Below are positions 15,305 to 25,265 of a DNA stretch of 64,000 bases, one piece after another. This stretch comes from Nitrospirales bacterium (GTDB lineage Bacteria; Nitrospirota; Nitrospiria; Nitrospirales; UBA8639), in assembly GCA_031315865.1 (NCBI GenBank), contig JALDRJ010000002.1, positions 1 to 64,000 on the forward strand, given 5' to 3'. The notes beneath the pieces are model-generated. The model was not told where the DNA came from. It worked only from the letters and a program-made list of their open reading frames with translations, and searched no databases. Both the position numbers and the translations under genes were made by a program. Within the stretch, counting starts at the first letter, position 1; every line of letters begins with the position of its first letter.

Positions 15305-16744
15305 TTAAGTTGTCGCATAAAGATTTCTTGTACCCTCTAGTAATGCAATGGCTAAACCTTTATCAGTATCTGTATATTTTAATTGTCTAAGTAAATAGCT
15401 ATATGCAGATGCCGCTCTTTCCCGTCTTCCCGCTTCAACTGATCTGGTCCATTCTCGTACAAATTTGATCACCTGAGGGATGGGACAATCCTTGATATAT
15501 TCCTCTAGATCAAACCATTTCCTTGCTTGTTCTATACTTGGCCAATTACTAATGCTTGCAGCGTCAGGATGAAAGAAAAGACTAAACTCAAGCGTTACTG
15601 GATCTATCGTTGCAGGCCCTTCTTTAATATCACCATAGTCTATAAGAGTAGCTGTACTTTGTTCGCGATTAACAAGAATGTTCTTGCCATTCAAATCACC
15701 ATGAATATAACACCATTTGGCTTGAAGAGGCTGATCCTCAAACCCTGTTGCCCAATCTAAATCATATTCTTTAATAAGAGCTTCCGCACACTCATTGTTT
15801 AATAAAAGGCATCGAACATCTTTTATTGTTTTACTTTCTTCCGTGGAAGCTTCCAGCCATTTATCCGTCAAATCACGTATGTTCTTTGATAAATTCGTTT
15901 CTATGGTGTCTCCTGTGGCCACTCCAAAGAAATCAGTATCGTGGCCCACAGCTAAGCCATAGAATACGGCCGCAGTATCTTTAGCACCAAAAACTGTTGT
16001 TTCAATTCGCCTGGGAGTGATCTCAGGTCTAAGACGACTAATATAAGCAGCATAATTCTCATCTTCGGTACTGATTGTTGTGTGATCTGCAATTTTAGCG
16101 ACCACATTATGTATTACATTACCGGAGTTGTTATATACACAGATTCTATATACTCTTGCCCCAGATAATCCTCCTGAAATTATTGAAATATCACAACGTG
16201 TTCCATTATTGCGCCGTGCAAAAATTCTTATAAGTCTATCGTCTTGAAGTGGAATAGCTATGCCATCGGAAGTTTTATTTACTTCTACCTGATGAAGATT
16301 CCTAATAGCTTGGACGATATCTTTGATTTTACTTTCATAATCATCTAGCCTTCTTTTTAGAGCATGGCCTACTGTTGATCTTTTTTGGCCTTCTCCCCAT
16401 ATATCTGTCTTTTCCGAAGATTCCAAAAAGTCTGATACTAGGTCGTCAGTACTCGACGCCGTCAAAATTAATATAGGCAACCCGGGAGCGACATCGTTAC
16501 AGTAATGCAAAATCTCGTTGCCGTATTCGATTTTTTTCTCTGAAGATCCACTAAACGCTGGAATAGTAAGGTCTAAGCTTAGTAGATCATAAAAATTCTT
16601 ATCCTCTAATAGCTGGCGCGCTTCATCACGATTGGTAACAACTGTTATTTGAGCATTAGCATCTAACTCTTGGATAATCCTTAAGATATACTCAGAAATA
16701 TCGTCATCGTCTTCTACGACAAGTATATGGGGTGAATGACTCAT
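15305..16744 (-). CDS. response regulator receiver fused to APH/protein-kinase-like phosphotransferase domain
   Basis: A 479-residue protein; the start ATG 16744 overlaps the upstream kinase stop as ATGA. Residues 5-125 are a receiver domain: acidic EDDDD (11-15), phospho-acceptor Asp58 in SLDLTIP, and LTAS. A helical linker leads into residues about 180-440, an aminoglycoside-phosphotransferase/choline-kinase-like fold: glycine loop GGLSGARV, a lysine in VVAKI, catalytic YIHGDLNGKNILV and metal-binding TLIDYGD. All key kinase residues are present, so it looks active. The fold resembles domains described in ternary-complex conflict systems (TCAD9), from memory only. Its substrate is unknown. 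It is third in an A+T-rich three-gene operon. Confidence 0.8.
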   Translation of the reverse strand: MSHSPHILVVEDDDDISEYILRIIQELDANAQITVVTNRDEARQLLEDKNFYDLLSLDLTIPAFSGSSEKKIEYGNEILHYCNDVAPGLPILILTASSTDDLVSDFLESSEKTDIWGEGQKRSTVGHALKRRLDDYESKIKDIVQAIRNLHQVEVNKTSDGIAIPLQDDRLIRIFARRNNGTRCDISIISGGLSGARVYRICVYNNSGNVIHNVVAKIADHTTISTEDENYAAYISRLRPEITPRRIETTVFGAKDTAAVFYGLAVGHDTDFFGVATGDTIETNLSKNIRDLTDKWLEASTEESKTIKDVRCLLLNNECAEALIKEYDLDWATGFEDQPLQAKWCYIHGDLNGKNILVNREQSTATLIDYGDIKEGPATIDPVTLEFSLFFHPDAASISNWPSIEQARKWFDLEEYIKDCPIPQVIKFVREWTRSVEAGRRERAASAYSYLLRQLKYTDTDKGLAIALLEGTRNLYATT

Positions 16745-17622
16745 ACCTGAAGTCTCCACCTTAACTCTAACTTAGCGCCTCCATCCTTTGCAGTTGCAAG
16801 AGAGGTACGCCCATCTAGATTTTCTAAGGCATGCTTAACAATAGCTAACCCAAAACCACCATGTTTTTTTTTGGAACTGTTACCTACTTCAAAAAAAGAA
16901 CTTTTTCCATCACATATTCCTGGTCCGTTGTCTAATATACTTACGGAGTACTCAACGTCTGTTTTGCTCCAAGAAACAATAACCCTTTTTTCATCTGTAT
17001 TTTCTTGTACCGCCTCAACAGCATTTCTAATACCATTTGATATAGCCATATGAAGCAAGTTGATGTCACCTTTAATTATAAAAGGTTTTTGTCCACTCAA
17101 TGAGACGTCAGTTCCCTCTTTGCATTCTTGTTGAGATATTTCCTTGATAAGCTCAGCTAGATCAAGCTCATCAGCTTTAGGAGTTGCAATAGATCTTCTT
17201 AGATCTGAAAAACCAGACAAAACCATATCTAAACTTTCCAGATATCTCTTGGTTTCACTATTTTCAAAATCAGAAATTTCTTGTTGCGCAGAAACCCTTA
17301 TTAGGCCGACCTTAGGTTCAATTTCATGTAATATAATTCCCGCCCATTTATCTGCTTCTTGTTTCGTAGCAACAATTCCTTCATCTTCATCTATTTGATT
17401 TTCGTCTGTACTTTTTGGATCTTCTGGAGTATTTGACCTAGAGTTTCTCTTAATTGCTAACTCTAAGGCTGCCCTTACGTGTGAAACCCGCTCTTTTTGG
17501 AGGAAACTTTTTAGTTTTGGAAGTAGATCAGGAAGGCTTGTTCGAGAAAAATGTCTAGCTCCACGGAGCCTTTGATGAGGAGAAGATGATTCTAAAAGCT
17601 TAATGGCGTCAGAACTTTCCAT
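16741..17622 (-). CDS. cytoplasmic histidine kinase with N-terminal HEAT-like segment
   Basis: About 293 residues. The ATG at 17622 overlaps the ATPase stop as TGATG; GTG 17625 is an alternative. Residues about 10-60 resemble HEAT-type helical repeats (HQRLRGARHF, then SHVRAALELAIKR). An acidic linker is followed by the phospho-acceptor helix with His99 in IILHEIEPKVG. The GHKL ATPase has N-box NGIRNAVEAV, G1 DNGPGI and G2 GGFGLAIVKHAL. No membrane helix or signal peptide is present, so it senses something inside the cell. The partner receiver overlaps by 4 bp downstream, and the upstream ATPase is equally coupled. Confidence 0.88.
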   Translation of the reverse strand: MESSDAIKLLESSSPHQRLRGARHFSRTSLPDLLPKLKSFLQKERVSHVRAALELAIKRNSRSNTPEDPKSTDENQIDEDEGIVATKQEADKWAGIILHEIEPKVGLIRVSAQQEISDFENSETKRYLESLDMVLSGFSDLRRSIATPKADELDLAELIKEISQQECKEGTDVSLSGQKPFIIKGDINLLHMAISNGIRNAVEAVQENTDEKRVIVSWSKTDVEYSVSILDNGPGICDGKSSFFEVGNSSKKKHGGFGLAIVKHALENLDGRTSLATAKDGGAKLELRWRLQV

Positions 17623-19472
17623 CACATAAGCTCTAGCAATCTATAAAACTCAGCCCTACGTTTAAATGCTTCTGCACCTCCTTCCATAACTGTAGAGATT
17701 GCTTCAACCACGTCTACATCTTCCAAAGAGCCACTTACTGCCTCATACCCTCTATTACCATCAGATTCCATCTGAATAACTAAATCAGCATCGCCCAAAA
17801 CAGGGATGTTGGCATTGTGAGTCGTCAATATCATTTGGCCTTTATCTGCTCGCCGCAAAATTGCCTTTATAAGAGTGCTAGTTATGAAAGCGTTATCAAT
17901 ATGGTCTTCAGGCTGATCAATGACTATTATTCTTTCAGTGTGTTCTAAGATGAGAGGCAATACAACAGTACAACGTTGACCGGTTGATAAATCTATAAAA
18001 TCTTTGTAGTCCCCCCCATCTAGTAAAGAAAAGGATACTGTATCCTCAACTTCTACCGTGGTAATTTCTCCTAAGTCGGCTTCATTCAAGGCAGCAATTA
18101 TTTTGGCAGCTCTGTCTGAATTTATTCCTGCTATGTCGGACAAGCCATCCACGTTGAAATCATCAACAAGTTCTAAAAGTTCTCTGGGACTTATGTTGTT
18201 GGCTATTTTAGGAACCAGAGTTTTATATTGAAGACCACTACCTTTCAACGCATCAGTCAATGCTGCACTATAATTTCCTACTTGCCCCGATTGAAAAACT
18301 TCGATTTTTATCTGAGGCCCTAAAGTTTTATTGAGACTTTTTTCAATTTTTGAACGCTCTTCGAATTGTTGAACACGAAATTTCTCCAAAAGATCTAGCT
18401 GCACATCTCTTTTTGAAATAAGATCGGCAAGAGCCTTTTTTTCTTTTTTCAAAACAGCTTCTAGCGCTCCTAGTTGTGCCAAGCGCTCTCTAAGCTTTTG
18501 ACCCTCTCGAACAATAGCTCCTGCACCTTTTTGCAACTCCTCTATCGACTGACGCAACGTACGTGCTTTCTCGTCTAACTTTTTTCTTTCACTTTCAGAC
18601 TTCTCAAGCAGTTCTTCTATCTCTGAATCTATTTCTTCGAATCCTGCAAAAGCTTGTTGAAGTTTCCTATCTATAGGTCCTAGTTTTTTTACTATGCTCT
18701 CAAACTTACCTTGCACAACTTCATCGTCCGAAATCTCGTAATTAGGTATACTTGAAATAGCTTTCTCAACAAGCCCCTCGACTTCCTCTAAATCCTCCTG
18801 GAAGCGACTAATGGTATCTGCCTCAACAGTGAGCGTTGCTAGTTTCTTAGAAAGCTTTTCGAGTTCATTTGCCTTTTTCTTAGCATCTGTAGATATACCG
18901 GAAACTTTTTTCTCTTTGGGGGCTAACTCTTTTAGCTTTTCTTGAAGTTCTGGAATTTGTGTTAGTTGAGTATCTAGTTCGTCAATGCCCTCTTTCAGGC
19001 TGTCGATATCCGAAGTTAAAGACCGGATAACCGCTATAGCTCGATCTTCTGAATTTTTTAATTTTTCCTTGTCCCGAGTAAACCCATCAATAATTTTTAA
19101 ACGACCACCAGTTTGCAGTCCTACTGTTTCCACTTCAGACTGGGAAAATATTAATGGCTTTGTATAACGAGCGCTTGCATCTGGCTTGCTATGTTCAGCT
19201 GTTCTGGATACAGAAATAATATGCTCATCGTCTCTTAAGGTGACCGTTATTTGGCCACTTCCTAATACAGACAAGGCATGATCATAAGAACGTCTTTTTG
19301 TTTCTTCTGAATAATTCTTAGCTGAAAGGCAGAAACGAATTAACTCAAGCAAAGAACTCTTTCCCGTCCCCCTCGCTCCAATTATGACATTTAGGCCAGG
19401 AGAAAAAGTTATGTCTAAGCCATCCAAAAACCCTTCTTCTATTTGCACGCGCTCAATATACAATTTTTTCAC
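17622..19472 (-). CDS. SMC/RecF-type coiled-coil ATPase (TrlF-like, without PHP domain)
   Basis: A 616-residue protein starting at GTG 19472. The N-terminal ATPase half has Walker A GARGTGKS (residues 32-39). Residues about 140-400 are Lys/Glu-rich coiled coil, including a long heptad-rich arm. The C-terminal half has the ABC signature region LSTGQRCTVVLPLIL, Walker B with IIVIDQPEDHID and the H-loop TTHNANI. The QPEDHID/THNANIPVLGDAD string is like the C-terminus of TrlF-type ATPases, but no PHP phosphoesterase domain precedes it. Such ATPases sense DNA ends or invading nucleic acid in several defence systems. It is first in the coupled operon with the kinase pair. Codon use is visibly A+T-richer than the flanks. 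Confidence 0.85.
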   Translation of the reverse strand: MKKLYIERVQIEEGFLDGLDITFSPGLNVIIGARGTGKSSLLELIRFCLSAKNYSEETKRRSYDHALSVLGSGQITVTLRDDEHIISVSRTAEHSKPDASARYTKPLIFSQSEVETVGLQTGGRLKIIDGFTRDKEKLKNSEDRAIAVIRSLTSDIDSLKEGIDELDTQLTQIPELQEKLKELAPKEKKVSGISTDAKKKANELEKLSKKLATLTVEADTISRFQEDLEEVEGLVEKAISSIPNYEISDDEVVQGKFESIVKKLGPIDRKLQQAFAGFEEIDSEIEELLEKSESERKKLDEKARTLRQSIEELQKGAGAIVREGQKLRERLAQLGALEAVLKKEKKALADLISKRDVQLDLLEKFRVQQFEERSKIEKSLNKTLGPQIKIEVFQSGQVGNYSAALTDALKGSGLQYKTLVPKIANNISPRELLELVDDFNVDGLSDIAGINSDRAAKIIAALNEADLGEITTVEVEDTVSFSLLDGGDYKDFIDLSTGQRCTVVLPLILEHTERIIVIDQPEDHIDNAFITSTLIKAILRRADKGQMILTTHNANIPVLGDADLVIQMESDGNRGYEAVSGSLEDVDVVEAISTVMEGGAEAFKRRAEFYRLLELM

Positions 19473-19858: not shown

Positions 19859-20110
19859 CTAATGCGAGGTCAAGGATTCTTCAACGGCCTTGCGGATATA
19901 TTTCTGGTAGGAAATGCCTTCCTGTTCCGCTTTCTGCCGAACTGCAGCCAGCAATTGCTCTGAAAACCGAAGATTGACCTGCTTGTCTTTCGGGAGCATC
20001 TCAAAATTGACCGCGGTGAAATTCTTCAGATTGGTGTAATCCGTCAAATCCTGGTCTAGGAACTTTTCAGCGTCTTTATCGCTCTTTAATTTTGGCACTT
20101 TCTTCTTCAT
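19859..20110 (-). CDS. brnA: BrnA-type antitoxin
   Basis: About 83 residues from ATG 20110, starting inside the end of brnT (35-bp overlap), the usual toxin-first order. The N-terminus is Lys-rich (MKKKVPKLKSDKDAEKFLD), followed by NFEMLPKDKQVNLRFSEQLLAAVRQKAEQEGISYQKYIRKAVEESL, a ribbon-helix-helix DNA-binding segment (VNLRFSEQLL strand, then two helices). BrnA neutralises BrnT and represses the operon. A longer frame from 20146 exists but lies wholly inside brnT and is less likely. Confidence 0.85.
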   Translation of the reverse strand: MKKKVPKLKSDKDAEKFLDQDLTDYTNLKNFTAVNFEMLPKDKQVNLRFSEQLLAAVRQKAEQEGISYQKYIRKAVEESLTSH

Positions 20111-20396
20111 ATCGTTTCGCCTCTTTCTCATGCATATAACGGGCACTAATGGGTCGGATTAGCCTCTCTCCATTCACATCTCGCAGGGTAAACACCACAA
20201 ACATCGGTTTGTGCTTTTTCGAGTGTCCAATCGCCAGAAAACGCTCCTCTTCATCGGAGTGTTTGGGATCGGGGGTAACATAGACTTCTGTTTGCTGAAA
20301 GAAATGCTCAATCTCCTTCTGGGACAGGCCATATTTTTGGCATTTTTCCCGATTTCCCTTATCCCAATCAAAACCGTTTACTTGGATATTCATCAT
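20076..20396 (-). CDS. brnT: BrnT-type RNase toxin
   Basis: A 106-residue protein of the RelE-like BrnT family. It opens with FDWDKGNREKCQKYGLSQKEIEHFF, continues with DEEERFLAIGHSKKHKPMFVVFTLRD and ends RPISARYMHEKEAKRYEEE; these three segments define BrnT. The family cleaves RNA and halts growth until BrnA binds. Tandem ATGs (20396 and 20393) both follow closely on the -10 element, so the leader is very short. Base use is close to the core genome, unlike the ATPase operon next to it. Confidence 0.9.
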   Translation of the reverse strand: MMNIQVNGFDWDKGNREKCQKYGLSQKEIEHFFQQTEVYVTPDPKHSDEEERFLAIGHSKKHKPMFVVFTLRDVNGERLIRPISARYMHEKEAKRYEEESAKIKER

Positions 20397-22112: not shown

Positions 22113-22902
22113 TCATAAATGTCTTTGGTGATAGATTTCTGCTGGTGTTTGATAGTCATGAGCCTGATGCGGGCGTTGTTCATTGTAAAAGACAAAATAA
22201 GCGGTCAAGCCTCTCACCAATTCTGAGCCTGTCGTATAGTCCCGCAAATAGATATCTTCGATATTGGACAGAACGCCATAAGCGTTCAATGAAGATAGTG
22301 TCAAACACCCGACCACGCCCATCCATACTGACTCGACTCCCAGCCTGCTCTACCCGGGTTATCCACGCCTGGGACGTAAATTGAACACCTTGATCACTAT
22401 TAAAAATGTCGGGCACCCCATGGGCGAACGCCTCATCCAAGGCCTCCAAGCAAAAATCGGCGTCCAACGAATTGGAGACGGCCCACCCTACGATATAGCG
22501 ACTAAACCAATCCATAATGGCGACCAAATACATAAAGCCGACGGTCATGGGCACATAGGTGATGTCGACACACCAGGCCTGATTGGGCCGCATCACTGAG
22601 ACATCTCGGAGTAAATAGGGATAGCGTGGATGAGCCGGATGCGCAATGGAGGTCTGAGGCCCAGGAGCGACCCCTTCCAACCCCATCAGACGCATCAAGC
22701 GTTGAATGCGTTTCCGATTCATCGGATGCCCTTGCTCCTGCAACCACACCGTCATGCGCCGACTGCCATAAAAGGGAGTGATCAGATACTGTGCGTCGAG
22801 CAGACGCATGAGCTGTAAGTTCTCAGGCGTTTCTGTGGCTGGCGTGTAATAGTAGACCGAACGCGACAACCCCATGAGGTTACATTGTTGTTGAATGCTC
22901 AT
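22113..22902 (-). pseudogene. IS3-family transposase OrfB, frameshifted
   Basis: The DDE integrase core is visible: WCVDITYVP, SDQGVQFTS and FIERLWRSVQY. After VQY the frame is lost, and the expected EDIYLRDY...NEQRPHQAHDYQTPAEIY C-terminus continues in another frame to the stop at 22113. A single extra base near 22259 explains the shift. The frame upstream of ATG 22902 continues toward orfA (WGLSPDQKRQLIDAEDPN), as expected for a frameshift-produced OrfAB, but the shift needed here is +1, not the usual -1. Confidence 0.85.
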
Positions 22903-23239: not shown

Positions 23240-23329
23240 TCCCTCATGAATGGAACAAGTCGATGTTCCACCATCTTAACGCACTGTCCCAATATTGGGG
23301 GCCTCTTTACCCCACCTCATCCTAGGCAC

Positions 23330-23425
23330 GTCTTGAGTCCTGAGTTGATCGAAGGATCGAACGGCTCGTCCTGCGTGTATCGAAGGGTTCATCCTGAGCT
23401 CTGAGCTAGCCGAAGAGTCGAAGAT
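23330..23425. repeat. dispersed intergenic repeat (GAGCTCTGAGCT/TCGAAGGATCGAA type)
   Basis: Several imperfect units occur here, such as GAGTTGATCGAAGGATCGAA, GTATCGAAGGGTTCATCCTGAG and CTCTGAGCTAGCCGAAGAGTCGAAG. A closely related unit lies at 24138-24168. Both flank the vapBC pair. Confidence 0.65.
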
Positions 23426-23505
23426 TCACCTCACCCCGTACAAGATTGTCGATTGAGCAAATGCTGTGTAAAATAATGTGTAATACTTTGTGTGAAAGGA
23501 GACCA

Positions 23506-23709
23506 ATGATGCCAACAAACCTGGCTTTAGACGATAAACTGGTTCAAGAGGTCAAACGTCTAGGAGGTCATTCAACCAAACGCGCTGCTGTCAATGAAGC
23601 ACTTCGTGAATATGTCACGCGCCGGAAACAGAAAAAAATCCTTGAGATATTCGGTACTCTTGAGTGGGATACTCAATACGATTACAAAGCGGCGAGAAAA
23701 CGCAAATGA
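23506..23709 (+). CDS. vapB: VapB-type antitoxin
   Basis: A 67-residue protein from the first of two ATGs (23506; 23509 is equally possible), behind AAAGGAG. MPTNLALDDKLVQEVKRLGGHSTKRAAVNEALREYVTRRKQKKILEIFG is the typical VapB2-like ribbon-helix-helix, followed by a toxin-binding tail (GTLEWDTQYDYKAARKRK). A longer frame from 23446 lacks a ribosome site. The stop overlaps the toxin start as ATGA, so translation is coupled. VapB masks VapC's active site and represses the operon. Confidence 0.88.
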   Translation: MMPTNLALDDKLVQEVKRLGGHSTKRAAVNEALREYVTRRKQKKILEIFGTLEWDTQYDYKAARKRK

Positions 23710-24104
23710 CCATCTTGGTGGATACATCGGTCTGGTCACTTGCGCTTCGAAAAGATGGACCTGCCGACCACTTGGCGGTCAAGAAGCTACAGAGTCTGTT
23801 GTTAGAGATGCAAGATATTGTCCTCATTGGAATCATTTTGCAAGAAATTCTCCAGGGCTTTCGACAAGAAAACACTTTCACAAAAGTCAGCTCCTATTTG
23901 AACGCGTTTCCCCTATTGCCTTTGAACCGAAGTGATTATGTCGCAGCAGCCAAACTTCGGCGTCAGGCAACAGCCAAAGGGCTAACCTTATCGACCCCTG
24001 ACTGTCAAATCGCTTCAGTGGCCATCAATCACCAATGCCGCCTCCTCACAACTGACAAAGACTTCTCAAATATTGCCAAATGGGCTCTCCTTCAGCTTCT
24101 TTAA
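23706..24104 (+). CDS. vapC: VapC-type PIN-domain RNase toxin
   Basis: A 132-residue PIN domain protein. Acidic active-site residues are visible in MTILVDTSVW (Asp6), IGIILQEILQGFR (Glu), STPDCQIASVA (Asp) and LLTTDKDF (Asp), so the nuclease site is complete. VapC toxins cut tRNA or rRNA. The start overlaps the vapB stop by 4 bp. The pair is bracketed by the dispersed repeats at 23330-23425 and 24138-24168. Confidence 0.9.
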   Translation: MTILVDTSVWSLALRKDGPADHLAVKKLQSLLLEMQDIVLIGIILQEILQGFRQENTFTKVSSYLNAFPLLPLNRSDYVAAAKLRRQATAKGLTLSTPDCQIASVAINHQCRLLTTDKDFSNIAKWALLQLL

Positions 24105-24137
24105 TCCCAATTCAATACCTTCATTCAGAGTATGCCA

Positions 24138-24168
24138 TGAGCTCTGAGCTTATCGAAGGATCGAAGGA
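24138..24168. repeat. dispersed intergenic repeat, second location
   Basis: TGAGCTCTGAGCTTATCGAA followed by GGATCGAAGG matches units in 23330-23425. Both copies lie outside coding sequence, on either side of vapBC. Confidence 0.6.
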
Positions 24169-25189: not shown

Positions 25190-25265
25190 TGGTGGAGGGC
25201 ACGGGAGTCGAACCCGCGACCTCAACGTTGCGAACGTTGCGCTCTCCCAACTGAGCTAGCCCCCC
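25190..25265 (-). tRNA. tRNA-Ala(CGC)
   Basis: On the minus strand the gene folds as a full cloverleaf: acceptor GGGGGGC with GCCCTCC, D arm AGCTCAGTTGGGAGAGC, anticodon stem CAACG/CGTTG around loop TTCGCAA (anticodon CGC, reading GCG), T arm with GGTTCGACTCC, and an encoded CCA. It marks the boundary between the accessory block and core purine genes; no duplicate of its 3' end was seen nearby. Confidence 0.93.

Follow-up and report, generated by a model that had tools for sequence, protein, structure and literature searches.

Why is a Rad50/SMC-like ATPase encoded together with a soluble histidine kinase (HK) and with a receiver domain (REC) that is fused to a kinase of the APH type? This question is raised by a 64,000-nucleotide stretch of DNA from Nitrospirales bacterium (GenBank assembly GCA_031315865.1, contig JALDRJ010000002.1, positions 1 to 64,000; hereafter the window), on the minus strand of which three overlapping open reading frames (ORFs) for the ATPase, the HK and the receiver-kinase form a tight operon (Table 1). 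Based on the conservation, domain make-up, mobility and output swapping of this trio, we propose that it is probably a mobile conflict or defence system, most likely acting against phages, in which the APH-type kinase serves as an effector switched by a phosphorelay.

The three genes behave as one unit. A tblastn search of plasmids with the third protein yielded relatives, the alignment of which was scanned against 84,980 species genomes, resulting in 62 loci. The plasmid relatives are nearly full-length, share 29-39% identity and occur in Rhizobium, Klebsiella, Leclercia, Pantoea, Piscirickettsia, Phaeobacter, Vibrio and others; in annotated plasmid records the ATPase and HK genes precede the REC-APH gene. 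Profile searches of plasmid and genome loci recovered the complete trio, in identical order and on the same strand, in 49 of the 58 loci with strong REC-APH matches. The spacing is -23 to +11 bases from gene 1 to gene 2 and -26 to +4 from gene 2 to gene 3, apart from a single gap of 122. Since identical order, strand and tight spacing recur in these 49 other loci, the operon of the window is not a product of chance. Complete trios are present in Pseudomonadota, Campylobacterota, Acidobacteriota, Chloroflexota and Actinomycetota, to which the genome of the window adds a sixth phylum. The homologues share 21-49% identity with the window proteins, and the catalytic residues of all three are invariant or nearly so (49-50 sequences). 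In addition, the distance matrices of the three proteins correlate at 0.94, against a highest value of 0.21 in 1000 permutations; partners are therefore not exchanged and the trio moves together. Exactly one HK of the window's HK family was found per genome in all 22 genomes tested (E ≤ 1e-30).

The nine incomplete loci include four at contig ends or on short contigs (L057, L069, L085, L088), three that are damaged (L035, L056, L087), one solitary REC-APH gene (L080) and one REC-APH gene within a different operon (L062). As the genome scan relied on motifs from the kinase part, partnerless kinases could have been found; they rarely turned up. The preliminary description of this DNA had taken a TGATG and an ATGA overlap as the mark of a coupled operon, and both are present in the sequence. 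It had also named random gene neighbourhoods, or three core regulators living mostly outside accessory DNA, as the patterns that would speak against it; when examined, the loci did not refute it, and co-occurrence of the genes proved near-obligatory. Within the phylum of the window, no other ATPase lacking a PHP domain was found in 386 genomes, and the receiver-kinase as a single query gave generic receiver matches only. When 50,697 phage records were screened, neither REC-APH nor the ATPase, nor the ATPase of the sister systems described below, had a match at the thresholds applied, and no near-identical copy of the Leclercia version was seen in complete E. coli genomes.

Some relatives occupy other settings. 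In L062 (5142-11389), the REC-APH protein has a degraded-looking receiver, and an SNF2-type helicase, a small protein, a GHKL-type ATPase (HATPase_c_3) and an HNH-like nuclease replace the ATPase-HK pair. L093 (8104-10978) and L095 (7984-10984) each encode a distant TCAD9-like kinase, receiver-like at its N-terminus, behind apparent E2-like and E1/JAB-like genes, the setting of a ubiquitin-type conjugation cluster; a UvrD-like helicase lies nearby in L095. In the Anaerolineales locus L096 (4697-11973), a GAF-type HK is joined in one row by a series of stand-alone receivers and by receiver-APH proteins. On plasmids of Piscirickettsia salmonis the module is widespread yet damaged: the HK of L035 is truncated, and elsewhere the ATPase match falls into two to three pieces.

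The first protein matches AAA_15 (1e-10) and SMC_N (3e-10) in Pfam. Its best NCBIfam match is TrlF_fam_ATP (TrlF, NF045780; 3e-84), and it has the ATPase core in common with TrlF and Ppl. The alignment covers positions 288-944 of the TrlF profile only: the window protein begins at the ATPase and the PHP domain is missing, whereas the TrlF matches are single PHP-fused ORFs of 850-990 amino acids, with no HK or receiver downstream in the two TrlF loci inspected. Given the absent PHP domain and a score of 284 bits, under the curated cut-off of 350 bits, membership of TrlF was rejected. Weak PADLOC matches link it to numerous defence proteins based on ATPases (Ppl, LmuB, AriA, GajA, PtuA). In the signature and Walker B motifs, S496, G498, Q499, D519, Q520, P521, E522 and D523 are invariant among 49 homologues.

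The mechanical ORF of the HK begins at a GTG one codon ahead of the ATG at 17622. The protein matches HATPase_c in Pfam and consists of two N-terminal HEAT-like helical hairpins (residues 3-64), the DHp helices (79-145) and the HATPase domain. In its structure model (predicted local distance difference test, pLDDT, 89.6), four N-terminal helices form the two hairpins, followed by the pair of DHp helices and the CA domain; there is no apparent membrane-anchor region. CpxA, ZraS and EnvZ chimeras are its matches among PDB structures, the fold being CpxA/ZraS-like with a standard DHp/CA arrangement, and a profile comparison matches the N-terminal part to designed HEAT-like alphaRep proteins. The phospho-acceptor His and the N- and G-boxes typical of two-component kinases are in place, with H99, N200, G235, G256 and G258 invariant in 50 sequences. 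No PADLOC match was obtained up to E 1 with the 2023 library, for which it was not checked whether the Detocs models are included.

The mechanical ORF of the third protein opens with a GTG at 16759, ahead of the ATG at 16744. Pfam assigns Response_reg, TCAD9 (PF19974) and APH; TCAD9 scores 66 bits, above its gathering cut-off of 40 bits. Among the homologues, TCAD9 (E ≤ 1e-3) and Response_reg are found in 49 of 49 and APH in 42 of 49, and no DNA-binding domain is present in gene 3. The receiver possesses the acidic pair, Asp, Thr/Ser and Lys expected of its class (D12, D58 and K130 invariant, E11 and T95 kept at ≥90% in 49 sequences), while the kinase carries the HxDxxxxN catalytic loop and metal-binding Asp of APH enzymes (H348, D350, N355 and D369 invariant, K217 kept at ≥90%). 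The model is confident (pLDDT 92.7; predicted template modelling score 0.89). The alignments given to the structure predictions left out plasmid-derived rows. In the model, residues 3-150 match receiver domains (VIA-align, Z ~16); the kinase part matches APH(3') and choline kinases (Foldseek, E ~1e-6), with 10-18% identity to solved APH enzymes, as well as the lanthipeptide kinase-containing complex LxmKY (Z 14.8) and maltokinase (Z 14.5; both VIA-align). The modelled fold thus makes either a small molecule or a peptide or protein conceivable as the substrate. The receiver also has a weak PADLOC match to the N-terminus of an SduA model.

From the letters, the preliminary description had read these proteins as a TrlF/SMC-like ATPase, a cytoplasmic HEAT-type HK and a receiver with an intact APH-like kinase. 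The AAA_15, SMC_N and TrlF ATPase-part matches bear out the first assignment, the model and the alphaRep match agree with the second, and the domains found in all 49 homologues, together with their invariant catalytic loop, confirm the third. His99 and Asp58 (numbered from the ATG start) had likewise been chosen correctly.

Table 1. Features of the three-gene operon and their positions in the window
Feature	Position	Strand	Remarks
Gene 1, Rad50/SMC-like ABC-type ATPase with coiled-coil middle, proposed sensor	17622..19472	-	616 aa, GTG start; Pfam/NCBIfam matches
Walker A GARGTGKS, residues 32-39	19356..19379	-	G32, R34, G35, G37, K38 invariant, 49 homologues
ABC signature LSTGQ (495-499) and Walker B IIVIDQPED (515-523)	17904..17990	-	conserved motifs
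TGATG overlap, gene 1 stop TGA (17624-17622) and gene 2 ATG (17622-17620)	17620..17624	-	sequence
Gene 2, soluble histidine kinase	16741..17622	-	293 aa, ATG at 17622
Phospho-acceptor His99 codon of the HK	17326..17328	-	invariant in 50 sequences; first DHp helix of the model
ATGA overlap, gene 2 stop TGA (16743-16741) and gene 3 ATG (16744-16742)	16741..16744	-	sequence
Gene 3, receiver and APH-type (TCAD9) kinase, proposed effector	15305..16744	-	479 aa, ATG at 16744
Receiver domain, residues 1-150 (E11, D12, D58, T95, K130)	16295..16744	-	Response_reg, VIA-align
Phospho-acceptor Asp58 codon of the receiver	16571..16573	-	invariant in 49 sequences
APH-type kinase domain, ~residues 160-479	15308..16267	-	TCAD9/APH matches, Foldseek
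Catalytic loop HGDLNGKN, residues 348-355	15680..15703	-	H348, D350, N355 invariant, 49 sequences
Metal-binding Asp369 (IDYGD) codon	15638..15640	-	invariant in 49 sequences

A scan of viral contigs with the ATPase profile retrieved three loci at 44-47% identity (L124-L126) and about 33 loci at about 30%. The latter level marks a group of sister systems, present on viral contigs (L127-L160) and Pseudomonadota chromosomes (L219-L229), for which we know of no name. They resemble the window trio in their three-gene order, with a homologous full-length ATPase (~30% identity) that lacks the PHP domain, followed by an HK and a receiver protein. They differ in their longer HK (~370-400 amino acids), in a separate ATPase clade and in the third protein of ~250-350 amino acids, whose receiver retains the Asp and Lys but whose C-terminus is a winged-helix-like domain in place of the APH kinase. 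Such a winged helix is indicated by Pfam (helix-turn-helix or Trans_reg_C) for a minority of members and suggested in many by GYRLN-like endings; the assignment is strong for some and presumed for the rest. Viral or integrase genes lie on many sister contigs; of 398 Pseudomonadota genomes, 10 have the arrangement on the chromosome, one of them in three copies (L222-L224). In the ATPase tree, the kinase type (52 rows) and the winged-helix type (33 rows) fall on separate sides of a branch (SH-like approximate likelihood ratio test 99 and 97), with TrlF outside both clades in this quick method, in which the TrlF branches are long. As the sister clade combines the ATPase and HK with a different receiver output, ATPase, HK and receiver are a common chassis and the APH kinase is one exchangeable output. 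Such swapping agrees with the view that the output of gene 3 lies in its C-terminal domain.

The trio belongs to the accessory genome. Plasmid copies often reside on conjugative replicons. L124 and L126 contain complete kinase-type trios among lambdoid prophage genes: in L124 the trio is located between the antitermination Q and replication O genes, and in L126 it follows tail-fibre genes, UmuC-type genes and an IS110 transposase. Phyla are intermingled in the ATPase tree, in which, for instance, Campylobacterota group with a Klebsiella plasmid and with Erwinia, and the window gene lies among proteobacterial ones. In the window, the module occupies a stretch of 37-41% GC, compared to ~52% in the surroundings. 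The sigma-54 regulator and copper-oxidase genes on its left are conserved in two congeners, and the ATPase is present in none of four congeners. An att-like direct repeat was sought at the edges of this island and not found. The preliminary description had assumed residence in accessory DNA, which these plasmids, prophages and the low-GC island substantiate.

The surroundings of the module were analysed in 20 loci, with 120 ORFs from its neighbourhood set against 120 from other parts of these genomes. PADLOC matches (E ≤ 1e-20) comprise 32 families near the module vs 5 in the controls, two of which are cysteine-desulfurase-like. The defence families near the module include a type III restriction enzyme and methyltransferase, type II methyltransferases, a DRT reverse transcriptase, AriAB, SoFic, CapP and DrmC. 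Phage integrases number 6 near the module and at most 1 in the controls. On plasmids, VapBC (L033), AbiEi/ii-like genes (L037), Fic/VbhA (L040) and a DUF1837 and DEAD-box helicase pair (L039), which we take to be Hachiman-like, lie within a few kb. SOS-type genes (UmuC, SRAP) accompany some copies. In sum, the module is accessory, horizontally moved and situated near defence genes, the enrichment of the latter being modest. Of the defence island suggested earlier, the surplus of defence families over same-genome controls stands; at these small numbers, the island as such is less secure.

In the mechanism that we envisage, the Rad50/SMC-like ATPase would act as the sensor, engaging DNA that is foreign, replicating or damaged, or some other indication of infection. 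A change in its nucleotide state might then switch the soluble HK, possibly by contact via the HEAT hairpins. The HK would autophosphorylate at His99 and hand the phosphate to Asp58 of the receiver, and the phosphorylated receiver could release or activate the fused kinase. The latter may phosphorylate a host molecule (a metabolite, a tRNA-related factor or a protein), by which growth or infection would be halted.

Several points weigh against this defence function. The enrichment corresponds to about nine distinct defence proteins vs three, from 120 vs 120 genes, a modest contrast in which the counts are approximate because PADLOC output lists families, not members. DNA binding by the ATPase is proposed by analogy. 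The sister systems have a transcriptional-type output, so the chassis alone is no proof of a killing effector, and the trio is absent as a system from PADLOC-DB 2023. The same evidence can be read in terms of a stress or maintenance module of mobile elements, in which the ATPase would sense DNA damage or loss of the element and the kinase output would arrest or reprogramme the host in favour of the plasmid or prophage (addiction, superinfection control). This reading agrees with the occurrence of the trio on plasmids and in prophages, with its toxin-antitoxin neighbours (BrnTA in the window; VapBC and Fic/VbhA on plasmids), with the nearby UmuC and SRAP genes and with the DNA-binding outputs of sister systems on viral contigs. 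However, many copies are chromosomal in diverse genomes with no obvious prophage genes, and restriction and retron-like defence proteins are among the neighbours; we regard this explanation as rather unlikely.

The fold and the catalytic loop of APH/choline-kinase type would also suit a drug- or metabolite-modifying enzyme under a two-component switch, for instance in antibiotic resistance. This is very improbable: identity to solved APH enzymes is only 10-18%, the best family, TCAD9, is a conflict-system domain, and, with a Rad50-like ATPase and a soluble HK as strict partners, a drug sensor is unlikely. That an ordinary two-component regulator adjoins an ATPase by happenstance, as the canonical fold and catalytic residues of the HK and receiver could suggest, is hardly credible. 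The ATPase stands in front in 49 of 49 complete loci, a co-occurrence that contradicts this idea, gene 3 has no DNA-binding domain and the distribution is accessory. A mobile defence system with a phosphorelay-switched kinase remains the reading that we favour.

The trio does not coincide with known systems to which it shows similarity. Its kinase domain family, TCAD9, is common to the ternary vWA-MoxR-VMAP conflict systems, whose effectors include sporadic active APH-superfamily kinases and receiver domains, and no histidine kinase is among the vWA-associated effectors (PMC7159879). Membership was rejected, as no vWA, MoxR or VMAP occurs among the window neighbours and the fixed partners are the ATPase and HK. 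Lamassu, PARIS (AriA), Gabija (GajA) and Septu likewise employ an ABC-type ATPase as sensor, in line with the weak LmuB, AriA, GajA and PtuA matches, but couple nucleases or related effectors directly, whereas the window trio is proposed to signal via a phosphorelay. Detocs is reportedly an anti-phage two-component system in which an HK drives a receiver fused to a nucleoside phosphorylase effector. It shares the pairing of an HK with a receiver-enzyme fusion; the trio was nonetheless not assigned to it, its effector being a TCAD9/APH kinase instead of a purine nucleoside phosphorylase and a Rad50-like ATPase being added as the first gene. A literature search found no described ATPase-HK-receiver-kinase defence system, a mention in the 2020 ABC ATPase classification or in the Detocs paper being possible. 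In the DefensePredictor work, HATPase and REC appear solely within a figure legend.

What would such a system mean for bacterial immunity? Many bacterial immune systems rely on Rad50/SMC-like ATPases for sensing, and no signalling route is commoner in bacteria than the two-component system; to our knowledge, no described system joins the two. Phosphorelay-driven and SMC-ATPase-driven immunity are each known kinds, and the ATPase-HK-receiver chassis is the more novel part. The chances are about even that an ATPase gating a soluble phosphorelay with an exchangeable output, either winged-helix-like or an APH kinase, constitutes an undescribed signalling class, in which the sensing of DNA states is coupled to two-component signalling and of which the kinase clade is a form of mobile immunity. 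If so, sensing, transmission and effector function would reside in separate, swappable proteins of one immune pathway. The phosphorelay would make the link between input and output measurable in vitro, with each step open to point-mutant tests (Walker A, His99, Asp58, HGD), and a way would open to the substrate of TCAD9-type kinases, whose domain owes its name to conflict systems.

The low-GC stretch of the window holds further genes. A BrnT/BrnA toxin-antitoxin pair (19859-20396, minus strand) lies directly upstream of the operon, and an IS3-type transposase (22180-22902, minus strand) belongs to the same island. It also includes a toxin-like gene with a PIN domain (VapC-like; 23664-24104, plus strand), which like the transposase lies to the left of tRNA-Ala (25190-25265), and around the PIN gene three copies of degenerate direct repeats of 29-45 bases (TGAGCTCTGAGCT..TCGAAG) are found at 23317-24166.

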